From contig SVMF01000009.1 of assembly GCA_015067565.1 (NCBI GenBank), positions 32,512 through 96,511 on the forward strand: DNA of 64,000 bases. The letters are read 5' to 3'. Each line of letters opens with the position of its first letter. Within the stretch, counting starts at the first letter, position 1. This DNA is from Oscillospiraceae bacterium (lineage in GTDB: Bacteria; Bacillota; Clostridia; Oscillospirales; Oscillospiraceae). The translations under genes and the position numbers were made by a program. The notes beneath the pieces are model-generated. The model was not told the DNA's origin. It did no database searches and saw only the letters and a list, made by a program, of their open reading frames with translations. Positions 14,593 to 63,708 of the stretch are shown one piece after another.

Positions 14593-14619
14593 AGTCGGAG
14601 AGTTTCTCACTCTCCGACT
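14593..14619. terminator. Terminator hairpin, left copy
   Basis: agtcggagag-tttctca-ctctccgact; identical 27-bp copy at 14875-14901. Confidence 0.7.
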
Positions 14620-14874
14620 CAGTCTGTCGAAAAACTCGTTTTTCGACAGACTGTCAGAGTTCAAAAAGGCGGCAAGACGAGCAAACCGAGTTCGTCGGCG
14701 TACGATGGTACGGTAGAGCTCGGTTTGCGATGTAAGTCAAAATGCCTTGCGAAGCAAGCATTGGAAGTGTTTTGGCTTATATTAGGGTTCTGCTCGCAAC
14801 AGTCTATTGGAACACAGATCGCCAACCGTCAAAAAATTTGCATTTTGACGATTGGCGACTTTTTTGACACTCTG
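14620..14874. repeat. 255-bp structured repeat element, copy 1
   Basis: About 93% identical by eye to 46188-46443. Imperfect terminal inverted repeats CAGTCTGTCGAAAAACT / AGTCGCC-side ACTTTTTTGACACTCTG. Several internal hairpins; flanked by identical 27-bp terminator hairpins. Confidence 0.9.
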
Positions 14875-14901
14875 AGTCGGAGAGTTTCTCACTCTCCGAC
14901 T
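14875..14901. terminator. Terminator hairpin, right copy
   Basis: agtcggagagtttctcactctccgact, identical to 14593-14619. Confidence 0.7.
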
Positions 14902-46161: not shown

Positions 46162-46187
46162 AGAGCCCGGACAAATGTCCGAGCTCT
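46162..46187. terminator. Terminator hairpin, left copy
   Basis: agagcccggacaaatgtccgagctct; 25/26 identical to 46444-46469. Confidence 0.75.
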
Positions 46188-46443
46188 CAGTCTGTCGAAA
46201 AACTCGTTTTTCGACAGACTGTCAGAGTTCAAAAAGGCGGCAAGACGAGCAAACCGAGTTCGTCGGCGTACGATGGTACGGTAGAGCTCGGTTTGCGATG
46301 TAAGTCAAAATGTCTTGCGTAGCAAGCATTGAAAGCGTTTTTGGCTTATATCAGAGTTATATTCACAACAGGCTATTTGAACACAGATCGCCAACCGTCA
46401 AAAAATTAGCATTTTGACGATTGGCGACTTTTTTGACACTCTG
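46188..46443. repeat. 256-bp structured repeat element, copy 2
   Basis: Same element as 14620-14874; the first ~124 bp are identical. Flanked by 26-bp terminator hairpin copies that differ in sequence from those at copy 1. Confidence 0.9.
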
Positions 46444-46469
46444 AGAGTCCGGACAAATGTCCGAGCTCT
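46444..46469. terminator. Terminator hairpin, right copy
   Basis: agagtccggacaaatgtccgagctct followed by tattttat. Confidence 0.75.
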
Positions 46470-51932: not shown

Positions 51933-54900
51933 ATGACACATGCGATGAAAAAGACGATTGCCTTACTTCTGACGCTTCTTCTTTTCGTGCAGCTTCTGCC
52001 GATGACCCTTGCAGCATCAAAGGAAACAGATGAGGGGACATCCGCCTTTTCCGGAAGTCTGTCTACCTCGCAGGATCTGTTGTTTGATTTTTCGAACAAT
52101 GCTGCAGCTCAGACTCGTTATAAATCAAGCGCGTACGGCGGTTATAATTTCGACCAGGAGACAAATGGCTACTGGGCAACCGGATATAACGGTACGAATA
52201 CGAATTATTCCATTTCAAATGCAAACGGAACCCTCCGCGTCAATATCACGGAGGGTTCCGATGCCAACGGAACCTATGGCCCGTGGCTGAAGACGACTAA
52301 TACCTACGGAAGGCTCCCATCGAGCAATTCCTCGACGTACCAGTATTATCCGCTTAACTACGATCCGTCGGCTGCGCAGTGCATCAAGATCCGATTCAAG
52401 CTGAACAACTGTACGATCCCCACTGGTACAACACCGAGATTCGTTTTTGAGTATTACTACACGAGCGGCTCGACCTACAGCTACAAGAACAACATCTATT
52501 CTGACTTCAGCTATCAGAACAATGTCTACCAGACTCTGACGATCCCGCTCAATTCGACATTCCGAAACGCGGATGCAATCAAGGGATTTGGTCTGCGTCT
52601 GCGCAATGTAAAGGCGACAAGCGGCACCCTCTATATCGACTATATCTATATCGGCAAGGACACCTCCTATAAGGTGACCTCGCACAATGATATGACCTTC
52701 CTTTCGCAGAAGGATGTGCCGATTGCCTCGGGTGTCAACGAGACCACCGTGCTTTTGAAGAACCGAGACAGCCAGCCGGTCGCAGGCTATTTTGCAACTG
52801 TTTCACCGTCGGCAATGTTCACATTCAAGGCTTCGTACCCCGGGTATTATACTGCAGGCAGTTCCGTTGCAAGCCGCGCAGCTCTGGCTCCGAACCTGCC
52901 TTTGACCGGCGCAACGACCACAAAACAGGCTTCCAACTATGAGAGTGTCTTCGGTGAAGAGGTTGTCTTTGCAACCAATGCGGACTTCTTCAATATGGAC
53001 ACCTTCCAGCCGAGAGGATACCTTGTCATGGAAGGCAATCTGATCCAGAACTACGGCACCCGTCAAACGCCCTATTTTGCGGTGCTGAAGGACGGTAGCT
53101 ATGCGATCCGACCCTATGGTTCTCCCTTGGGCGATGTTAAGGAAGCGGTATCGGGTTACCAGTGGCTTGTGCGTGACGGTGCGGTCGTGAAAAATAACGA
53201 TGAAGAACGACATCCGAGAACTGCTATTGGTCTGAAGGCCGACCAGACCGTCATTGTCTTTACCGCTGACGGCAGACAGGAGGGCTACTCTATGGGTATG
53301 ACTCTGCAGGAGCTTGCCAATCTCATGTATGCTGCAGGCTGCGTGGATGCGATAAACCTTGATGGTGGTGGTTCTTCGACATTCGTCTCGGCTTACAGTG
53401 GAACGACCAATCAGGTGATCCGCAATAAGCCGTGTGATTCTACGGGAGAACGTGTGGTATCTACTGCTTTGCTCTTGGTGCCGGCGACTTGCAAGCACAA
53501 ATTTACAAGCAATTCCTATGCGGTTCATGAAGACGGAACGCATACGACAGCGTGCACCTCCTGCGGTGAAAAGATCACAATTAGCCACAGCTATACAGAC
53601 GGTTTGTGTAAATGCGGATTGCGGGAAAAGACGTCGTCGGGGCTGTATTTTGGCTTTGGTAACCGCATGGCAGATACAGAGCGTTATAACACTCCTGCCT
53701 ATGGCTACCATAATTACGATTTGACCACAAATGGCGTTTGGTCCCGTGGTTATTGGGCGACAGGATATAATGGCGGCAGCACGAATTATACGATCAGTAA
53801 TTCATTGGGTGAGTTGACAATGAATGTTACCGAGGATTACAGCGGTACTTTAGGTCAAAATGAAATCTATGGCCCATGGTTGAAACTAACCAACGGCCAT
53901 GGCGCTGCTCCTTCCAAAAGCACACCGACACTCTACTCTCTGAATTATACCCCAACAAAGGCAAAAGAGATTCAAATTCGATTCAAGCTGTCTGATTGCA
54001 CAGCTGTGGGGGGAAAGACCCCGACAGTTGCCTTTGAATATTACTACTTGAAGAACGGAGAGTATAAATCTGCGCTCCTGAGCAAGACGTATTCCTTCGA
54101 AGATGGTATTTATCAGACCGTTACTCTGCCTGTCAACCCTACCTTCACCTCTGCGGATGCGATCTGTGGCTTCGGCTTCCGATTCCAGCATATCAAGAGC
54201 GCGGCGAATGGCAAATTGACTGTGGACTTTATCCACATCGGCGAAGAATCTGCAGATACATTGTTCTTTGATTTCAAGAACGATTTTGCCTCGAAGCAAC
54301 GTTATCAGAATACGGCCTACAACTTCTATAACTTTGACCTTGCCACAAGCGGCTTCTGGACAACCGGATATAATGTAAGCCGCACGGACTACGCAATCAG
54401 CAACAGCGAAGGTGTTCTGAAGGTCAATGTGCAGCAGGGTTACAGCAGCGCTGCAGATGGCAGTGATGTCATCTATGGCCCATGGCTGAAGACAACAAAC
54501 AACCATGGGAAATTTACCACAAGAACATCCTATGACTATTATCCGCTAAACTACAATCCGGAAAATGCGGAATATGTGCAGATTCGTCTGAAGCATACCG
54601 GCTGCGCGGTACCGAGCGGCAAGAAGCCAAACCTCGTGCTTGAGTTCTATTATACAGAAAATGGCATATACAACATGGCGAATAATATTACCTGCAGCTA
54701 CACAATGGACAATGGCACCTATCAGATCCTGACCTTCCCCGTGTCCTCCCAGTTCAAGAGTGCTGACGAGATCGAATGCCTCGGACTGCGCTTCCAGCAT
54801 GTGATGGGCAATCCTGAAGGGCAGATCGTGATCGATTATATCTACATTGGGCCACAGAAGGATCTGCCAAATGATACCTACGAAGTTTCCTTTGTTGATG

Positions 54901-57083
54901 CAGACGGAACGGTATTCGAAACGCAGACCGTCCTGAAGGGAAACAGCGTGATCTACTCGGGCGCAACTCCGGCGAAGGCATATGATGCAATCAACCATTA
55001 CACCTTCAGCGGTTGGGACAAGGATCTGACAAACATTCAGGCTGATACAGTTTTCGCTGCACAGTTCGATGCGCAGGCGCATACCCTCAGTTATACCTCG
55101 GTGGATGACGATTCCCACAATTCAAGCTGCAATTGTGGCTATGCAATCAGCGAGAGTCATACCATAATCGAATGCATCTCGAAGACACCAACCTGTACGT
55201 CAACGGGCATTAAGACGATCGCTTGCCCAAAGTGTAACCTCAGCAAATCAGAAGTGCTGCCCAAAACAGATCATGTGTGGAAGGTGCTTGCGGCTGTTGC
55301 TCCTACCTGCACGGATGGAGGACAGACCGAGGGCGAGAGCTGCTCGGTCTGCGGTGAGATTCTCGTGGAGCAGAAAGCAATTGATGCGCTCGGACATTCT
55401 TACAAGTCGGTTGTGACAGATCCAACCTGTACAGAGATTGGTTATACGACCTATACCTGCTCCAGATGTCGTGATTCCTATGTGGATCACGAAATACAGG
55501 CCGCCGGACACAGCTACGATAACGGTAGAATTACAGCCCCGCCCAATTGTACGGAAGAAGGCATTAAGACCTACACCTGCCTGATATGCGGCGTGACAAA
55601 AAATCAGACGATTGCACCGCATGGCCATATAGAGGTGAAGGACGGTGCAGTTGCCCCGACCTGCACAGAAAGCGGCCTGACTGAGGGAAAGCACTGCTCC
55701 GTCTGCAAAGAGGTACTTCTTGCACAGACTGAGATTGCAGCACTTGGCCACAGCTACGATAACGGTGTGATCACCGCAGAGCCGACCTGCACGGTAGCAG
55801 GCGCCAAGACCTTCACCTGCCACTGCGGTGATACACAGACCGAGACCATTGAAAAGCTCAACCATAAATCGACGTATGTTGCGCAGGTCGCCCCGACCTG
55901 CACGGAAGACGGCCACGAGGCACATTACAAGTGCAGCCGTTGCGAAATGACCTTCGTGGATGAGGTGTGCAGGTATCCCTTGCCGGTGGAATATATGGTC
56001 ATTCCTGCAACCGGCCACAGCTACACCTACACCAACAATGGCAAAAACCACACTGTCGGCTGCGTAAATTGCGACGACTCCGCAACGGAAGATCACACCT
56101 ACGTAGATGGCAAGTGCATCTGCGGCGCAAACGAGCCGACGGAGCAGTTTGTCGAGACACTCAAGCCCAGCATGAGCATCGTTGTCGGTGCGGAAATGAG
56201 CGTTGCATTTACCGTCAATCAGTCCATGGTATCCAAGTACGAAAGCTTCTACCTCGTCGTTGAGAAGGATATGTTTGGCGCTGAGGCCAAGACCGTGACC
56301 TTCGGCTACGGCGAAGGCCAGACGGCTCTGACTCCGATGCCCAATGCAGCAAATCCGTTCCTGCACAATGCAAGCTTCACGGGTCTGACCGCAAAGGAAA
56401 TGGGCGACGAAATCAGAGCAACGCTGTACTGCGTGGACGCAGAGGGCAACATCTTCTACGGCCCGACGCAGGCTGACTCCGTCAAGGATTATCTGCTCAG
56501 AGGTCTTGACCTTGCAACCTCGACTCCCGAGAAGAAGACGATGTATGTCGATATGCTTCGCTACGGCGCAGTGGCGCAAACCTACTTCGACTACGACACC
56601 GACAACCTAGTTTCCGATGATCTAAAGGAAGCACATCTCGCCTATGCTACCACCGTGATCCCCGAGGCAGTCGATGGTTCCAAGGCAGAGGGCGGCCGTG
56701 GCACCTTGAACACCAGCGTCGTTCTGAAGGCAAGAGTCACCCTGACTCTGTCCAACCTGAAGCCCGGTGCAAACCTTGCAAATATGAAGTTCATTGTCAA
56801 GGACGCACTTGACGGCACTGTCATCAAGGAACTGCCGGCTTACAACCTCAATCCCGTCATGGTTGCTGCTGACTTCGACGATGTCGGCGCAAAGCAGATG
56901 AGAAGACTCATCACCGTCACTCTGTACGACGGCGACACGGCGATTACCGATACCGTGACCTGGAGCGTTGAGAGCTATGTTGCAAAGATTCGTGCAACGA
57001 GCACCGATGCAGTCCAAATTGACCTCGTCAACGCAATGCTCACCTACGGTGACGCAGTTGCCGCCTACATGGCAACCCAATAA
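51933..57083 (+). CDS. Giant secreted protein with phosphodiester-glycosidase (NAGPA)-like domain and Cys/His repeats
   Basis: Signal peptide; FGEEVVFATNADFFNMDTFQPRGYLVMEGNLIQNY ... RHPRTAIGLKADQTVIVFTADGRQEGYSMGMTLQELANLMYAAGCVDAINLDGGGSSTFV. Three ~210-aa repeated ectodomain modules (TNGYWATGYNGTNTNYSISN); PTCTE-type Cys/His repeats. Confidence 0.85.
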   Translation: MTHAMKKTIALLLTLLLFVQLLPMTLAASKETDEGTSAFSGSLSTSQDLLFDFSNNAAAQTRYKSSAYGGYNFDQETNGYWATGYNGTNTNYSISNANGTLRVNITEGSDANGTYGPWLKTTNTYGRLPSSNSSTYQYYPLNYDPSAAQCIKIRFKLNNCTIPTGTTPRFVFEYYYTSGSTYSYKNNIYSDFSYQNNVYQTLTIPLNSTFRNADAIKGFGLRLRNVKATSGTLYIDYIYIGKDTSYKVTSHNDMTFLSQKDVPIASGVNETTVLLKNRDSQPVAGYFATVSPSAMFTFKASYPGYYTAGSSVASRAALAPNLPLTGATTTKQASNYESVFGEEVVFATNADFFNMDTFQPRGYLVMEGNLIQNYGTRQTPYFAVLKDGSYAIRPYGSPLGDVKEAVSGYQWLVRDGAVVKNNDEERHPRTAIGLKADQTVIVFTADGRQEGYSMGMTLQELANLMYAAGCVDAINLDGGGSSTFVSAYSGTTNQVIRNKPCDSTGERVVSTALLLVPATCKHKFTSNSYAVHEDGTHTTACTSCGEKITISHSYTDGLCKCGLREKTSSGLYFGFGNRMADTERYNTPAYGYHNYDLTTNGVWSRGYWATGYNGGSTNYTISNSLGELTMNVTEDYSGTLGQNEIYGPWLKLTNGHGAAPSKSTPTLYSLNYTPTKAKEIQIRFKLSDCTAVGGKTPTVAFEYYYLKNGEYKSALLSKTYSFEDGIYQTVTLPVNPTFTSADAICGFGFRFQHIKSAANGKLTVDFIHIGEESADTLFFDFKNDFASKQRYQNTAYNFYNFDLATSGFWTTGYNVSRTDYAISNSEGVLKVNVQQGYSSAADGSDVIYGPWLKTTNNHGKFTTRTSYDYYPLNYNPENAEYVQIRLKHTGCAVPSGKKPNLVLEFYYTENGIYNMANNITCSYTMDNGTYQILTFPVSSQFKSADEIECLGLRFQHVMGNPEGQIVIDYIYIGPQKDLPNDTYEVSFVDADGTVFETQTVLKGNSVIYSGATPAKAYDAINHYTFSGWDKDLTNIQADTVFAAQFDAQAHTLSYTSVDDDSHNSSCNCGYAISESHTIIECISKTPTCTSTGIKTIACPKCNLSKSEVLPKTDHVWKVLAAVAPTCTDGGQTEGESCSVCGEILVEQKAIDALGHSYKSVVTDPTCTEIGYTTYTCSRCRDSYVDHEIQAAGHSYDNGRITAPPNCTEEGIKTYTCLICGVTKNQTIAPHGHIEVKDGAVAPTCTESGLTEGKHCSVCKEVLLAQTEIAALGHSYDNGVITAEPTCTVAGAKTFTCHCGDTQTETIEKLNHKSTYVAQVAPTCTEDGHEAHYKCSRCEMTFVDEVCRYPLPVEYMVIPATGHSYTYTNNGKNHTVGCVNCDDSATEDHTYVDGKCICGANEPTEQFVETLKPSMSIVVGAEMSVAFTVNQSMVSKYESFYLVVEKDMFGAEAKTVTFGYGEGQTALTPMPNAANPFLHNASFTGLTAKEMGDEIRATLYCVDAEGNIFYGPTQADSVKDYLLRGLDLATSTPEKKTMYVDMLRYGAVAQTYFDYDTDNLVSDDLKEAHLAYATTVIPEAVDGSKAEGGRGTLNTSVVLKARVTLTLSNLKPGANLANMKFIVKDALDGTVIKELPAYNLNPVMVAADFDDVGAKQMRRLITVTLYDGDTAITDTVTWSVESYVAKIRATSTDAVQIDLVNAMLTYGDAVAAYMATQ
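55890..57083 (+). repeat. C-terminal module, left arm of ~1.2-kb inverted duplication
   Basis: The encoded C-terminus (APTCTEDG...[18 protein letters not shown]...AYMATQ) is nearly identical to that of the convergent gene at 57646. Boundaries approximate. Confidence 0.85.
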
Positions 57084-57093
57084 AAACTGAAGA

Positions 57094-57121
57094 CCCGGGA
57101 TAGGCAAAGGCCTATCCCGGG
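57094..57121. terminator. Terminator hairpin copy A
   Basis: cccgggataggcaaaggcctatcccggg followed by tttt. Confidence 0.85.
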
Positions 57122-57192
57122 TTTTGCTGTAACGCACAATATTGTGGCGTGTTTATAGAGTCACGTTGTACTGTACCCGTTTGCGGATACCA

Positions 57193-57303
57193 CATGTCAT
57201 CTCATTATGAGGAGAGAGCATGACCGAGAAATCTTGACTAGGGAAAAACGAATTGCAGGATACATATAACAACACAGATTCTTCGCTTTGCACACAATGA
57301 CAT
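57193..57303. repeat. Degenerate palindromic GTCATT-type repeat
   Basis: catgtcatctcattatgag...gaccgagaaatc at left and gattcttcgctttgcacacaatgacatg at right are imperfect reverse complements. Confidence 0.5.
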
Positions 57304-57404
57304 GCGACCTTGCAAACCCGCTATCCACAGGGGGAAGCAGCGGTCTCCTGGCGGACGGCCATAGCCGTTCCCTACAACGGTGCGTGTAAATACACATACG
57401 AAAA

Positions 57405-57431
57405 CCCGGGACAGGCTTTAGCCTGTCCCGG
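57405..57431. terminator. Terminator hairpin copy B
   Basis: cccgggacaggctttagcctgtcccgg; 25/27 identical, same orientation, to copy C. Confidence 0.8.
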
Positions 57432-57607
57432 TGAGCGTGCCAAAAAAGTTCTTATCGTGTCATCGCGAGGAGCGCAGCGACGTGGCGATCTCGTGCTGAA
57501 AGTTTGCTATTCTACCGAAAGAAAGATAAAAATCAAACTTTCGAGATTGCCACGACCGCCTGTTCGGCGGTCTCGCAATGACAAGACTATCGTTTTTCGA
57601 CAGTCTG
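57432..57607. repeat. Third terminator-flanked element: same termini as the 255-bp element (inverted), different core
   Basis: Right end GTTTTTCGACAGTCTG is the reverse complement of CAGACTGTCGAAAAAC (15/16 to the 255-bp L end). Left end reverse-complements to ACTTTTTTGGCACGCTC (14/17 to the R end). Core is a GTCATYGCGAGG...CGAGATTGCCACG...CTCGCAATGAC palindrome. Confidence 0.75.
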
Positions 57608-57635
57608 CCCGGGACAGGTTTTAGCCTATCCCGGG
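57608..57635. terminator. Terminator hairpin copy C
   Basis: cccgggacaggttttagcctatcccggg. Confidence 0.8.
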
Positions 57636-57645
57636 TCCGTTATTC

Positions 57646-58845
57646 CTATTGCGTTGCCATGTAGGCAGCAACGGCATCACCATAGGTGAGCATTGCGTTG
57701 ACGAGGTCAATTTGGCCTGCGTCGGTGCTGGTTGCACGAATCTTTGCAACATAGCTCTCAACGCTCCAAGTAACGGTATCCGTGATAGCGGTGTTGCCGT
57801 CGTACAGAGTGACGGTGATGAGTCTTCTCATCTGCTTTGCGCCGACATCGTCGAAGTCAGCTGCAACCATGACGGGGTTGAGGTTGTAGGCAGGCAGTTC
57901 TTTGATAACAGTGCCATCGAGTGCGTCCTTGACAACGAACTTCATGTTTGCAAGGTTTGCACCGGGCTTCAGGTGGGACAGCGTCAGGGTGACTCTTGCC
58001 TTCAGAACGACGCTGGTGTTCAGCGTGCCGAGGCCGCCCTCTGCCTTGGAAGCATCGACTGCCTCGGGGATCACGGTGGTTGCGTAGGTCAGGTGTTCCT
58101 CCGTCAGATCGTCCGTAACCAGATTGTCCGTGTCGTAGTCGAAGTAGGTCTGTGCGACTGCACCATAGCGGAGCATATCGACATACATGGTCTTCTTTGC
58201 ATCGGTGCTGGTTGCCAGATCCAGGCCTCTCATCAGGTAATCCTTGACGGAGTCAGCCTGCGTCGGGCCGTAGAAGATGTTGCCTTCTGCGTCCACGCAG
58301 TACAGGGTTGCTCTGATTTCGTCGCCCATTTCCTTTGCGGTCAGGCCGGTGAAGCTTGCATTGTGCAGGAACGGATTTGCTGCATTGGGCATCGGAGTCA
58401 AAGCCGTCTGACCTTCGCCGTAGCCGAAGGTAACCGTCTTGGACTCTGCGCCAACCATATCCTTCTCAACAACGAGGTAGAAGCTCTCATACTTGCCAAC
58501 GAGTGCGTTGGGAACGGTGAAGGCTACGCTCATTTCCGCACCGACAACAATGCTCATGCTGGGCTTTAGGGTCTCGACAAATTCCTTGGTGGGTTCGGTG
58601 ACCTCTTCTGAGCCGCAGATACAGGAGCCGTCAATATAGGTGTGATCTTCGGTGACGGAGTCGTTGCAATTTTCGCAGCCGACGGTATGATCGTCGCCGT
58701 TGTTCGTGTAGGTATGACTGTGGCCGGTTGCGGGAATGACCATATATTCCACCGGCAAGGGATACCTGCACAACTCATCCACGAAGGTCATTTCGCAACG
58801 GCTGCACTTATAATGCGCCTCGAGGCCGTCTTCCGTGCAGGTTGG
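57646..58845 (-). repeat. C-terminal module, right arm of ~1.2-kb inverted duplication
   Basis: Near-identical translation to 55890-57083, in opposite orientation. Boundaries approximate. Confidence 0.85.
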
Positions 58846-61800
58846 TGCAATTTCCGCGACATATCTCTCTGCATGACCGAGGGACTCGGTTTCGTCGGCG
58901 ATATGGGTGTCATTACAGAGATAGCAGGTATAGGTCGTGAATCCGTCCTCGGTACAAGTCGGAGCGGTTACAACAACATCGTAATCGTGTCCCGTTGCGC
59001 TGATGATCATGAACTCGATGGGCAAGGCATAGCTGCACGCTTCATCGATGAAGGTTTTTTCGCAGTGGATGCACTTGTAATGTGCCTCGAGGCCGTCTTC
59101 TGTGCAAGTCGGGGCGACATGCGCAACATACGTCGATTTATGGTTGAGCTTTTCAATGGTCTCGGTCTGTGTATCACCGCAGTGGCAGGTGAAGGTCTTG
59201 GTGCCTTCGGCCTCGCAGGTCGGCTCAACGGTGATCTTGCCTTCATCGTAGCTATGGCCGTTGGCGGCAATGGCTTGCTGCGCCACAAGGACTTCGCCAC
59301 AGACGTCACAGTGCTTGCCCTCGGCCAGACCGCTTTCAGTGCAGGTTGGTGCAACTGCCTCGTCGATTACTTCGCTGTGCCCAAGTGCTGCAATCTCAGT
59401 CTGTTCAAGCAATACCTCGTTACAGACGGAGCAGTGCTTTCCCTCAGTCAGGCCGCTTTCTGTGCAGGTCGCTGCGATGGCCTCGTCGATGATCTCATTG
59501 TGACCGAGCGCATCAATAATCTCCTGCGCAACAAGGATTTCTCCGCAAACATCACAGTGTTTACCTTCGGTCAGGCCGCTACTCGCACAATCAGGGACAA
59601 CGGCTTCGTCGACGACTTCAGTATGCTCGATCATTTCAATCGATTTGGTGTATGTAGCATTGCAGATAACACAGGTAAAGGTCTTTTGGCCTTCTGCAGA
59701 GCACGTTGCCTCCGTGGTAATCTCGCCATCATTCCACGAATGGCCTTCGGCCTTACTGTAGCCGCAGACACAGGTAGCCGTGTGCTTATCGCCGTCAGCA
59801 TTATCATAAGAATAGCTATGTTCCACGGCCGCATACACCGGATAAAGCAACAAGTCCCTTGTAATACTATTAAGATCTGCAACCGTTCCATCAGCTTCTG
59901 CCCATGCGGTAAAGGTGTAGTGTGCAGCTTCCTCAAACTGCTTGGTAGGCAGCTGTCCTTCGAAGGTGATTGCTTCACCCTCTGTAGCCGTAATTTCCTG
60001 CAAGACAGTACCATTCGCGTCGTGGAAGCGGACACTATAGCTCCCACGTGCACCACAAGCGCAAATGCCGTAAACATAGGTATGCATCTGCGTATAGCTT
60101 GCGCCACAAGAAGCACACTTGCAGGTGTGGTTCTTGGAATCGAGCTGTGCAAAGCTGACATTATGGTGATAATTCACACCATTTGCGGATACAGCAGACT
60201 TGGTCGCCTTACGGCCTTCCCTATTTCCATAATTTGCAAAGTGCTCCAGCAGCTTGAACTCGGTGTTCAAATGAGATAGATCTGTGTATTGAGAATAGTA
60301 ATATGCAGGATCAAAATTGACGGAAAGCTTCTTTGGCGCATCGCTGAACTCGCTCGTGCTGTCCATATAAGAGATGAAATGATTCATCGCTTTCTCGTAA
60401 TCGCCCTTTGCGTACTCCGTCAGGTTAATATTATTGTGATTTGCGTAGTAACCAATATCAAAGTAAGGACTTGCGCTGCGTCCTTCTTCAATACCGAGGT
60501 TCACAAAGTGCTTGTACAACATTGCTTCGTCCGTGCCATAAACAGCCATCAGATCAGGATAGCGGTTTGCATAATATTCCGCATCAAATACAAAAGGTTT
60601 GACCTTTTCAGGGATAGAAACCGTCGTCGTATTTCTCGGTGTGCCAAAGTACAGCACCTGCGGCCCTTTATATGCAGGATAAATGACAGCGCCAAGACTC
60701 GTAAGCCAAGCCTTGGGATTCGTGGAGCTTGCCGCACTGCCACCGGTCACCTCGTGGGTAACACCGGTGCAGGGCCACAGGCTGATCTCGGGGTCGATTG
60801 CCTGATAAACAGCCTTCGACTGCCCGTTTCTGCCACCGTGATGGGCCATCTGGACAATGTCGCTTTTTAGGTTAAAATATTGTGCAGAATTTGACTTGTT
60901 TGATGCCTGATATGACTCCAGGACAATACTGCAGCCTGCAGCTGCGTCGCCTAGGAACAAAATCGTCTTGCCGCCAACGGTTGCACGGCACACCATTGTT
61001 GTATTGTTTGACGTGTCCGAAACAATCTGGACAAGTGTTTTGTCAGCATAGTTTGTATTATGTGTGTCCATGGTACAGGTATACTTGCTCGTCATCGTCT
61101 TGGTTGCGGCGATCGTATCATCAAATGTCAATAGTACGTCAAAATGAACCTCGTCAATGTCAAAGGAAGAGTTGCACTTTCCGGTATGTCTGGAGTTGAG
61201 CTCCACAATTTCGACAGCACCACCTTGGGCATTTTTCAGAAGCTTGGTAGCATTGTACACAGCCTGGATAGCAGAGTTCATACCAGCAGGATTGTCGTCG
61301 GCACAGTATTTGTTGAGCTCATCCAGAGTAGGATAGTTACAATACAAACGGTCAAGCGTGATGGAATTCGGGTACTTCTGTGCGATATCCAAGTAGGCAT
61401 AAACATGATCGCTGTGTGCGTGTGTATGGATCCATGCATCAATATGCGGCACAGCCTTGCCGGTCAAATTACGCAGATAGGACAGAAGATACAGCGCTTC
61501 GTTGCCGCGTCTACCACCGTCAATCACGATGATCTTCCCCTCCGCTGTTTGCATGACATAGGCCATATTCTGCGCCTGTTCGCCAGCATAGGAAGAGTTG
61601 TCGGTCATCGTCGGAAGTTGATGTAGTGTTGTTATACCTGGCATCGCCTTCGCAAGCCCAAATTGCAGATCTTTCGCTGCAGTGCGCAGTTCAAGCGCAC
61701 GCGCCTGGAGCGTTCTTTGCAGCTGAGTATCGGTAAAAATGATGCGGCTCTTCTGATACAGCGCTAAAGTTTCTGCCAGATATTGGACAAAGCTTGCATA

Positions 61801-63708
61801 GCTCTCCGACGAATAGCCCCCGGAGTTTCCGTTTTCTACATAAGGCAACATTTCCTTCAGAGCCTTATAAAGCTCCAGCGAAACGTTTGATACCTGATAC
61901 ATATAGAATTCAATAACAAAATCACGATCAACATCGTTACGACGCATCTGCGCACGGGTTGCTGTGGTAAAATTATTGCTATTATCCGTGTCAGAACCGA
62001 GCCAATAGGTAAACTGGTTTACACCACCGATATGCATCTTATATGCTGTGGCCGTACCGTTTGAATTTGCTTGGAAGAAGTAGGGATAGCTACTCGTTCC
62101 GACCTGCAGTCCTTCCTTGTTGCCATAGGGAGAAAGGTAACTACCGCCTCCGAATCGGAGTGTATAGGCCGGATCCTTTGAAGGATCGGGCTTCGTATAG
62201 ATGCGATAACCCTTCGTGGTATCGGTAGCAGGATCCTTGCTGTTGGTTTCCCATTCCTCCTGCGTGTAGGACTGGTAGGTCACATCATTTTTGTTGTAAT
62301 ATGTAATGCTGCCCGACCATTTTTGCAGCTGCACAGTATACTGCAGCGAGGTCTGTGTGCGGACGGCATTGTTGTTGACAGGGATGACGACAGGCGCAAA
62401 GCCGCTTTGCGGCACATTGCTCGTGCTGTTCGCCGAGCGGTGAAGCACGCCGTTTGTTGTCACTGGGGCATTGGGATTAATGGTCTGATAATGTCCACTG
62501 GAATAGGTCAGCATAAAATACGTGCCGTTCAAGGAACCTTGATTGGATGAAGTCAGCTTCTTCTGCTTTGCGATGGGTATGTACAGATTACGCAGCTGAG
62601 CTGCGATATCCGCAGCAAGAGCCAAAGTTTCACCCTGATTGCCGTAACGCAGCTGCTTTACCGCCAGTCGCAGCGCTTCCGCCTTATCCTCAAGGGTTTT
62701 CTGAAGGTTCGTGTTGGAAAAAACCTGAGAATTTGCACGGTACAGCGCAATCGCATCCTGCAATGATTTCAAGTAGGAGGCATAGCTTGCCTCTTCATAG
62801 CCCGTGTTGCCGTTTTGCACATAAGGCAGCATTTCCTGAAGGGTCTTGTAAAGCTCAATCGACACCGGAGAAAGCTGAAACATATACAATTCAATGTTAA
62901 ATCCCTTGCTCACATCGTTTCTGCGCATCTGTGCACGGGTAGCCAGCGTGAAGCGGTTGCTGTCATTGGTATCCATTCCGAACCAATAGGTAAACTGGTT
63001 GATGCCGTCGATATGTATTTTATAAGCTGTAAGCGTACCATTGGTATTAGCCTGGATCATAAATGGATAAGATGTTGAAGACTTCTTCAGTGCTTCACCA
63101 TTGCCGTTGGGGGTCAAGTAATTACCGTCAGAAAAACGCAGAGTGTAGGCGGCATCCGCCGCAGGTATCGGAATCGTGTAAACGCGAGCGCCATCGGTTG
63201 AACTATTTACGCTGTTAGTCTTCCATTCTTGCAATGTGTAGGAATAATAGGTCGTCTCCGCATCGCTATAGTAATAATTAATGGGTTCTCTCCAATAATC
63301 AAGCTGAACCGTATTTTGCAAGCTTGATTGACCCGTAACCTGATTATTCGAAACGCTCAGCGCGATCGGAGAGAAGGCGCTTTGCGGTCTGTTTGTGGTG
63401 CTGTCCTTGGAGCGGTGCAGCACACCCTTAGAGGTCACGGCTGCTGCGTGATTGAGCGCATAATAGATACCATCTGTCTTCGCAGCAACAAAATAAGTTC
63501 CTGCCAGTTCGTGGGAGTTGGCATAATTGATCGTTTTAAGCTGATTGACCGGAATGGGTAACGACTGAATCTGCGCAGCCAAGTCCGCCGCAAGTACGGA
63601 TGAATTCAGGGCAGAGTCTACCTCTGTCGCAGAAACATTCGCAGGAGGTAACCCGCAAAGAATCGTCAACATTAAAATTAGAGCAAGCATTCTTCTTAGC
63701 ATAAACAC
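57646..63708 (-). CDS. Giant secreted MBL-fold (ComEC-like) hydrolase with duplicated N-terminal modules and Cys/His repeats
   Basis: Signal peptide; MBL motif [16 protein letters not shown] and [14 protein letters not shown]; two tandem ~330-aa N-terminal repeats; [36 protein letters not shown] repeats; [19 protein letters not shown] repeats. Confidence 0.85.

Follow-up and report, generated by a model that had tools for sequence, protein, structure and literature searches.

A terminator-inserting MITE with whole-hairpin target duplications and a probable RNA core in an Oscillospiraceae genome

IS1272 and TnSha1, both of the IS1182 family, insert at hairpins, and the stem is lost without any target duplication (PMC5678879, PMC4923244). 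For IS1272, Wan 2017 proposed a replacement pathway and drew duplication of the hairpin as a hypothetical pathway b (Fig. 13 of PMC5678879); TnSha1 removes part of the hairpin (Furi 2016, PMC4923244). In our search of the literature on IS1182 in connection with terminators or RNA-bearing MITEs, this IS1272/TnSha1 work was the only close match. The pneumococcal repeats BOX, RUP and SPRITE are nearly confined to one species and its close relative (PMC3049150).

The element that we describe here, from an Oscillospiraceae genome, has features of both groups. With IS1272 and TnSha1 it shares the transposase family (as judged from the insertion sequences, ISs, of its relatives), a preference for hairpin targets, mostly terminators, and the lack of primary-sequence specificity; whereas IS1272 deletes or replaces the stem-loop, however, the present MITE duplicates the whole of it. 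With BOX, RUP and SPRITE (PMC3049150) and the MITEs of PMC10969869 it has in common that it is short, non-coding, highly folded when transcribed and present in many intergenic copies, and with BOX and RUP also that it has terminal repeats and target duplications. It differs from these repeats in that the duplication is a whole hairpin of variable length, and in an internal core whose covariation extends over several families and orders. We consider it very probable that the element is a terminator-inserting MITE which is moved by an IS1182-family transposase, duplicates the hairpin that it enters and carries a core maintained at the RNA level.

Copies in the window and across the genome

The window, by which we mean the whole 64,000-nucleotide stretch that was analysed, contains the element twice (Table 1). 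The first-pass annotation had put the identity of the two copies at about 93% by eye, and alignment gives 94.6%. The two hairpins around the copy described here lie where that annotation had placed them and agree at 25 of 26 positions, and the neighbours of this copy are indeed convergent, a YcaO-domain gene and a dTDP-glucose-dehydratase-like gene. The 27-bp hairpin that flanks the other copy is a different one. The annotation had argued from this pattern for repeated insertion at terminators with duplication of the target, and had named shared sequence beyond the element as the finding that would speak for a copied segment. Our analysis supports its argument: the flanks are site-specific and the element constant, a repeat search finds nothing shared outside the element, and the similarity stops at the element ends, so that a block duplication of the two sites is refuted. 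No empty site of the kind that it suggested looking for was found in the genus relatives (one genome per species), where synteny around the locus is not kept and the dehydratase gene has other neighbours.

Table 1. Features of the two MITE copies in the window (positions are those of the window)
Feature	Positions	Strand	Remark
Left copy of target hairpin, agagcccggacaaatgtccgagctct	46162-46187	none	terminator between convergent ycaO and rfbB-like genes
MITE, 256 bp	46188-46443	+	the RNA core reads on the + strand, judged from wobble pairs
Outer left terminal inverted repeat, CAGTCTGTCGAAAAACTCG	46188-46206	+	end shared with the unassembled parent IS
Fold-back hairpin H1, left end	46188-46221	+	terminal repeat with an inverted copy of itself behind it
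Inner terminal-repeat-like strand	46222-46240	+	predicted partner of the right terminal repeat in stem P1
Stem-loop P2 of the RNA core	46250-46295	+	covariation
P2 arms	46250-46261 and 46284-46295	+	enclose near-invariant GTCGGCGTAC-GATG-GTACGGTA
P3 (long-range stem), 5' strand, GTCAAAATG	46304-46312	+	
P3 (long-range stem), 3' strand, CATTTTGAC	46410-46418	+	
Right terminal inverted repeat, CGACTTTTTTGACACTCTG	46425-46443	+	
Right copy of target hairpin, agagtccggacaaatgtccgagctct	46444-46469	none	
Left target hairpin of the other MITE, 27 bp	14593-14619	none	
Other MITE, 255 bp	14620-14874	+	
Right target hairpin of the other MITE	14875-14901	none	

The right terminal repeat, taken together with the hairpin before it, resembles an intrinsic terminator. 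The fold-back H1 at the left end, opposite a single repeat at the right end, also occurs in genus relatives, in other families and beyond the order. Elsewhere in the window, at 55606-59522, there are large inverted repeats with arms of up to 888 nt that are 89% complementary; they lie between two convergent long ORFs, 51933-57083 (+) and 57646-63708 (-), which apparently encode paralogous repetitive proteins.

Across the genome we find about 50 copies, short, intergenic and bounded by imperfect 19-bp terminal inverted repeats, as is characteristic of a MITE. Flanks were aligned for 44 of these copies, and at 34 of the 44 the element stands between exact or near-exact copies of a hairpin, which constitute its target site duplication. 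The direct repeats are themselves the hairpins (17-41 bp), their sequence is different at nearly every one of the 34 sites, and strong stems are present at all 34, compared with 186 of 1000 random sites. With some 50 copies, and duplicated and varied hairpins at 34 of 44, chance is excluded. The ten copies in which no duplication is directly detectable comprise three whose duplicated hairpin has acquired small mutations (L019, L023, L030), four truncated copies (L007, L020, L040, L042), two with different hairpins on their two sides (L013, L029) and one that runs into another IS (L002). The pattern extends beyond this genome. Hairpins are duplicated at 34 of 42 elements in genus relatives, and the combination of a constant element with a site-specific hairpin recurs at 32 sites in the genus relatives and 10 in other families of the order, in addition to the roughly 50 loci here; 15 related full-length ISs likewise have site-specific hairpin duplications. 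Insertion into terminators with duplication of the target is thus well supported.

Recombination between copies can leave an element with mismatched flanks. Clostridiales bacterium CCNA10, whose genome is complete, shows this: L185 and L215 are two IS copies, and the hairpin to the right of L185 is the one to the left of L215; such recombination explains at least one case of mismatched flanks in that genome. The hairpin shared by L185 and L215 is also the trace of a genome rearrangement through IS copies, and shared hairpins of this kind could serve to join contigs, as seven pairs of contig ends in the genome studied here (G000) suggest.

The structured core and its distribution

The surprising part of the MITE, which the first-pass annotation did not see, is its core, a three-way junction of conserved structure whose internal loop is near-invariant. 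Aligned over an 18-bp structure, 50 cores have 97.9% of the cells paired, and 10 of the 18 pairs have changed on both sides; cells changed on both sides number 134, versus 38.6 in shuffles. The long-range stem P3 reaches a complementarity of at least 8 in 90% of 41 elements, versus 9.7% in shuffles, and is kept with very different sequences (GTCAAAATC:GATTTTGAC, GCAGAAAAA:TTTTTCTGC, AAAAGTCAC:GTGACTTTT, GTAAACAAAAAA:TTTTTTGTTTAC). Selection on the structure, as read from these aligned sequences, is well supported. The core resembles the structured RNAs of Rfam 15 in its covarying stems and its conserved internal loop and junction; unlike them, it matches no family at gathering score in Rfam 15 scans of several versions of the element, and the few weak matches returned in 'evalue' scans lie far below that score. 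If so maintained, the core would be a new and widespread structured RNA family, tied to mobility and not represented in Rfam.

Relatives of the element occur in nine species of the same genus and in another family, with the core at roughly 70-78% identity. A covariance model of the core, searched in samples of 397 genomes of the order and 392 of the class, detects it in 35 and 27 of them, respectively, mostly inside terminator-inserted elements. Ends of the same type, with hairpin duplications, are present outside the order at L325, L326, L327, L330, L331, L334 and L335. Other core copies stand between other terminal repeats: the kind that begins GGGGCTGTCGCATTTAG... at L292, L311, L288, L294 and L287, and the kind that begins TAAGGAGATAGAAAA... 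at L301 and L309, in these cases apparently without hairpin duplication. In some families the core has no recognisable ends.

A MITE is usually, though not universally, derived from its parent IS by internal deletion, and this is not what we find here. The core is absent from 76 of the 78 IS1182-related loci that we searched; the two matches are at L154 and, weakly, at L164, where the match overlaps the target hairpin. Since the core is nearly absent from these loci, the MITE represents a separate, old lineage and not a recent deletion product. L154 (2720-4473) is a composite of 1753 bp, in which a MITE with its core on the minus strand is fused to an IS1182 gene and the whole is flanked by a single pair of 37-bp duplicated hairpins.

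Could the core be nothing but a DNA structure, a cruciform or a hairpin bound by the transposase, whose arms are kept complementary by conversion and which has no role as RNA? MITEs are often palindromic, homogenisation of hairpin arms could keep a DNA palindrome complementary as well, and the orientation of the element relative to genes is not clearly biased. We nonetheless regard this explanation as unlikely, at perhaps one chance in five. The unpaired loop bases are near-invariant across families, and the ISs themselves lack the core except for the one composite. More directly, the 67 distinct pairs of P2 arms contain 40 G-U cells versus 4 A-C cells on one strand, counts that come from related sequences and, for the members at order and class level, from a collection made with a G-U-tolerant model; the genus set alone, mostly found by BLAST, gives 9 to 2. 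The excess of G-U over A-C speaks for RNA rather than DNA, and for the + rather than the - strand. Selection at the RNA level is likely.

The genes on the left point into the element at a ratio of 51:30 over all sites (with noisy ORF calls), and tandem gene pairs show no orientation bias (17 with versus 22 against). A bias relative to neighbouring genes is therefore weak at most, which argues against a strong benefit to the host that depends on transcription coming from the neighbour. We also considered that an upstream gene might transcribe the RNA by way of a left hairpin cut off from its U-tract, and gene orientation lends this little support. We propose that an old MITE lineage keeps a structured core consisting of P1 (formed by the terminal repeats), P2 with its near-invariant internal loop, and P3, and that this core would evolve as an RNA read from the + strand. 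Because the orientation to neighbouring genes is not clearly biased, our guess is that the predicted RNA serves the element rather than the host, for example by binding the transposase or controlling its use. To a broader proposal we give an even chance: that these elements are mobile non-coding RNA genes which form one family across the class, a bacterial counterpart of SINEs. In this view a three-way-junction RNA of ~220 nt under RNA-level selection would be carried into gene terminators by IS1182-type ends, the whole terminator being duplicated; it is found behind other terminal repeats as well, and would work for the element, possibly via the transposase.

Parent IS and shape of the duplication

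The left end of an IS (CAGTCTGTCGAAAAAGCTCAG..., a promoter-like sequence and the ORF start MLERGKMERGIFEIVDT) is found at eight contig ends of the same genome, and its right end at others. These IS ends, CAGTCTGTCGAAAAAG and CAGTCTGTCGAATAAC, match the ends of the MITE. The interior of the IS is missing from the assembly, so that no more of the transposase of this genome is visible than the first 17 and the last 32 residues. Seven pairs of left and right contig ends each have one identical terminator hairpin, from which it follows that the parent IS makes the same duplication. The C-terminal 32 amino acids bear a weak resemblance to those of IS1182 proteins (E = 0.002, from a small set) and by themselves give no family hit. 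Another genome of the genus (G011) has an IS whose ends are of this type and which stands between two copies of one hairpin. It encodes an IS1182-family transposase (NF033551, 362.9 bits versus a cut-off of 270) with the domains DUF772 and DDE_Tnp_1_6; the G011 contig matches a reindeer Oscillospiraceae MAG at 100%. From this relative and the C-terminal resemblance we strongly infer that the IS of the present genome belongs to the IS1182 family. A PDB search with the transposase yielded no relative, and the viral contigs that were searched for the start of the IS yielded no match.

At nearly all 34 sites the duplicated stretch is centred on the dyad of the hairpin, with stem-edge offsets that are equal or within 1 bp. 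The length of the duplication correlates only weakly with the span of the stem (r = 0.27) because the A and T tracts of terminators extend the stem outward, and a position-wise pairing profile is the better test. Pairing across the dyad is ~0.94-1.0 just inside the edge of the duplication versus ~0.3-0.6 outside; it is nearly full once the second base within the duplication is reached and has dropped to near background a few bases beyond the edge, and the profile is alike in the MITEs and in full-length ISs. At the 15 full-length ISs (1.5-1.75 kb) of other genomes, the duplicated palindromes measure 19-64 bp, the longest being that at L167. As the edges track the hairpin up to 64 bp, the cut follows the foot of the stem and not a fixed spacing. 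At L161, L172 and L023, one of the two hairpin copies has its loop in the opposite orientation, which may reflect processing or flipping of the hairpin.

We propose that the MITE is non-autonomous and would be mobilised by a DDE transposase of the IS1182 family that recognises hairpin-forming DNA, mostly intrinsic terminators, presumably by extrusion of a cruciform and joining of strands at the 5' feet. In this genome the donor would be the IS assembled only at its ends and flanked by duplicated hairpins. Insertion into a terminator that leaves a full hairpin on each side would explain a high copy number at little cost. These loci are numerous natural cases in which a DDE transposase duplicates a hairpin in full, an outcome that for IS1182 relatives had previously been only a drawn hypothesis, and they make structure-directed choice of target directly testable.

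Three other routes to such flanks are far less probable. In a stem-loop replacement like that of IS1272, the target hairpin would be removed and the flanking hairpins would come from the donor or have been adjacent beforehand. This has precedent in IS1272 and TnSha1, which belong to the same family and lose the stem without target duplication (PMC5678879, PMC4923244), and at L002 another IS1182-type IS abuts a MITE without a hairpin. Replacement, however, predicts no copies in the flanks, and here full copies lie on both sides and differ at nearly every site, so that we think it very unlikely.

Still more improbable is that segmental duplication or recombination spread a block of terminator, element and terminator, with no transposition into terminators. 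Recombination between copies does occur (L185/L215), and the neighbouring copies at L028 have the same hairpin. The hairpins nevertheless differ at nearly every site with nothing common beyond the element, and the same pattern is found with unrelated hairpins in many genera. L028 (G000, C18:5382-6465) consists of two MITEs ~830 bp apart with the same terminator hairpin, GCCGCATCGTAAGATGCGGC, and differing outer flanks.

Class C group II introns also settle at terminators, after which they insert, and CRISPR repeats are duplicated by Cas1-type integration in a way that the duplication of a whole palindrome resembles, but we consider either route a negligible prospect, since the length of the duplicated stretch changes with that of the hairpin, the element ends in inverted repeats of the type seen on ISs that encode DDE transposases and, for the introns, 256 bp leave no room for an RT gene, a target duplication is present and the Rfam scan of the element gives no group II intron match.

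A second IS1182-type IS, with ends GGGGCTGTCTCAAAACTAAATAG, is found at contig ends of the same genome (L067, L002, L117), where it is close to the ends of genes, has no hairpins at its flanks and, at L002, adjoins a MITE. Judged from these positions, it may replace terminators in the manner of IS1272.
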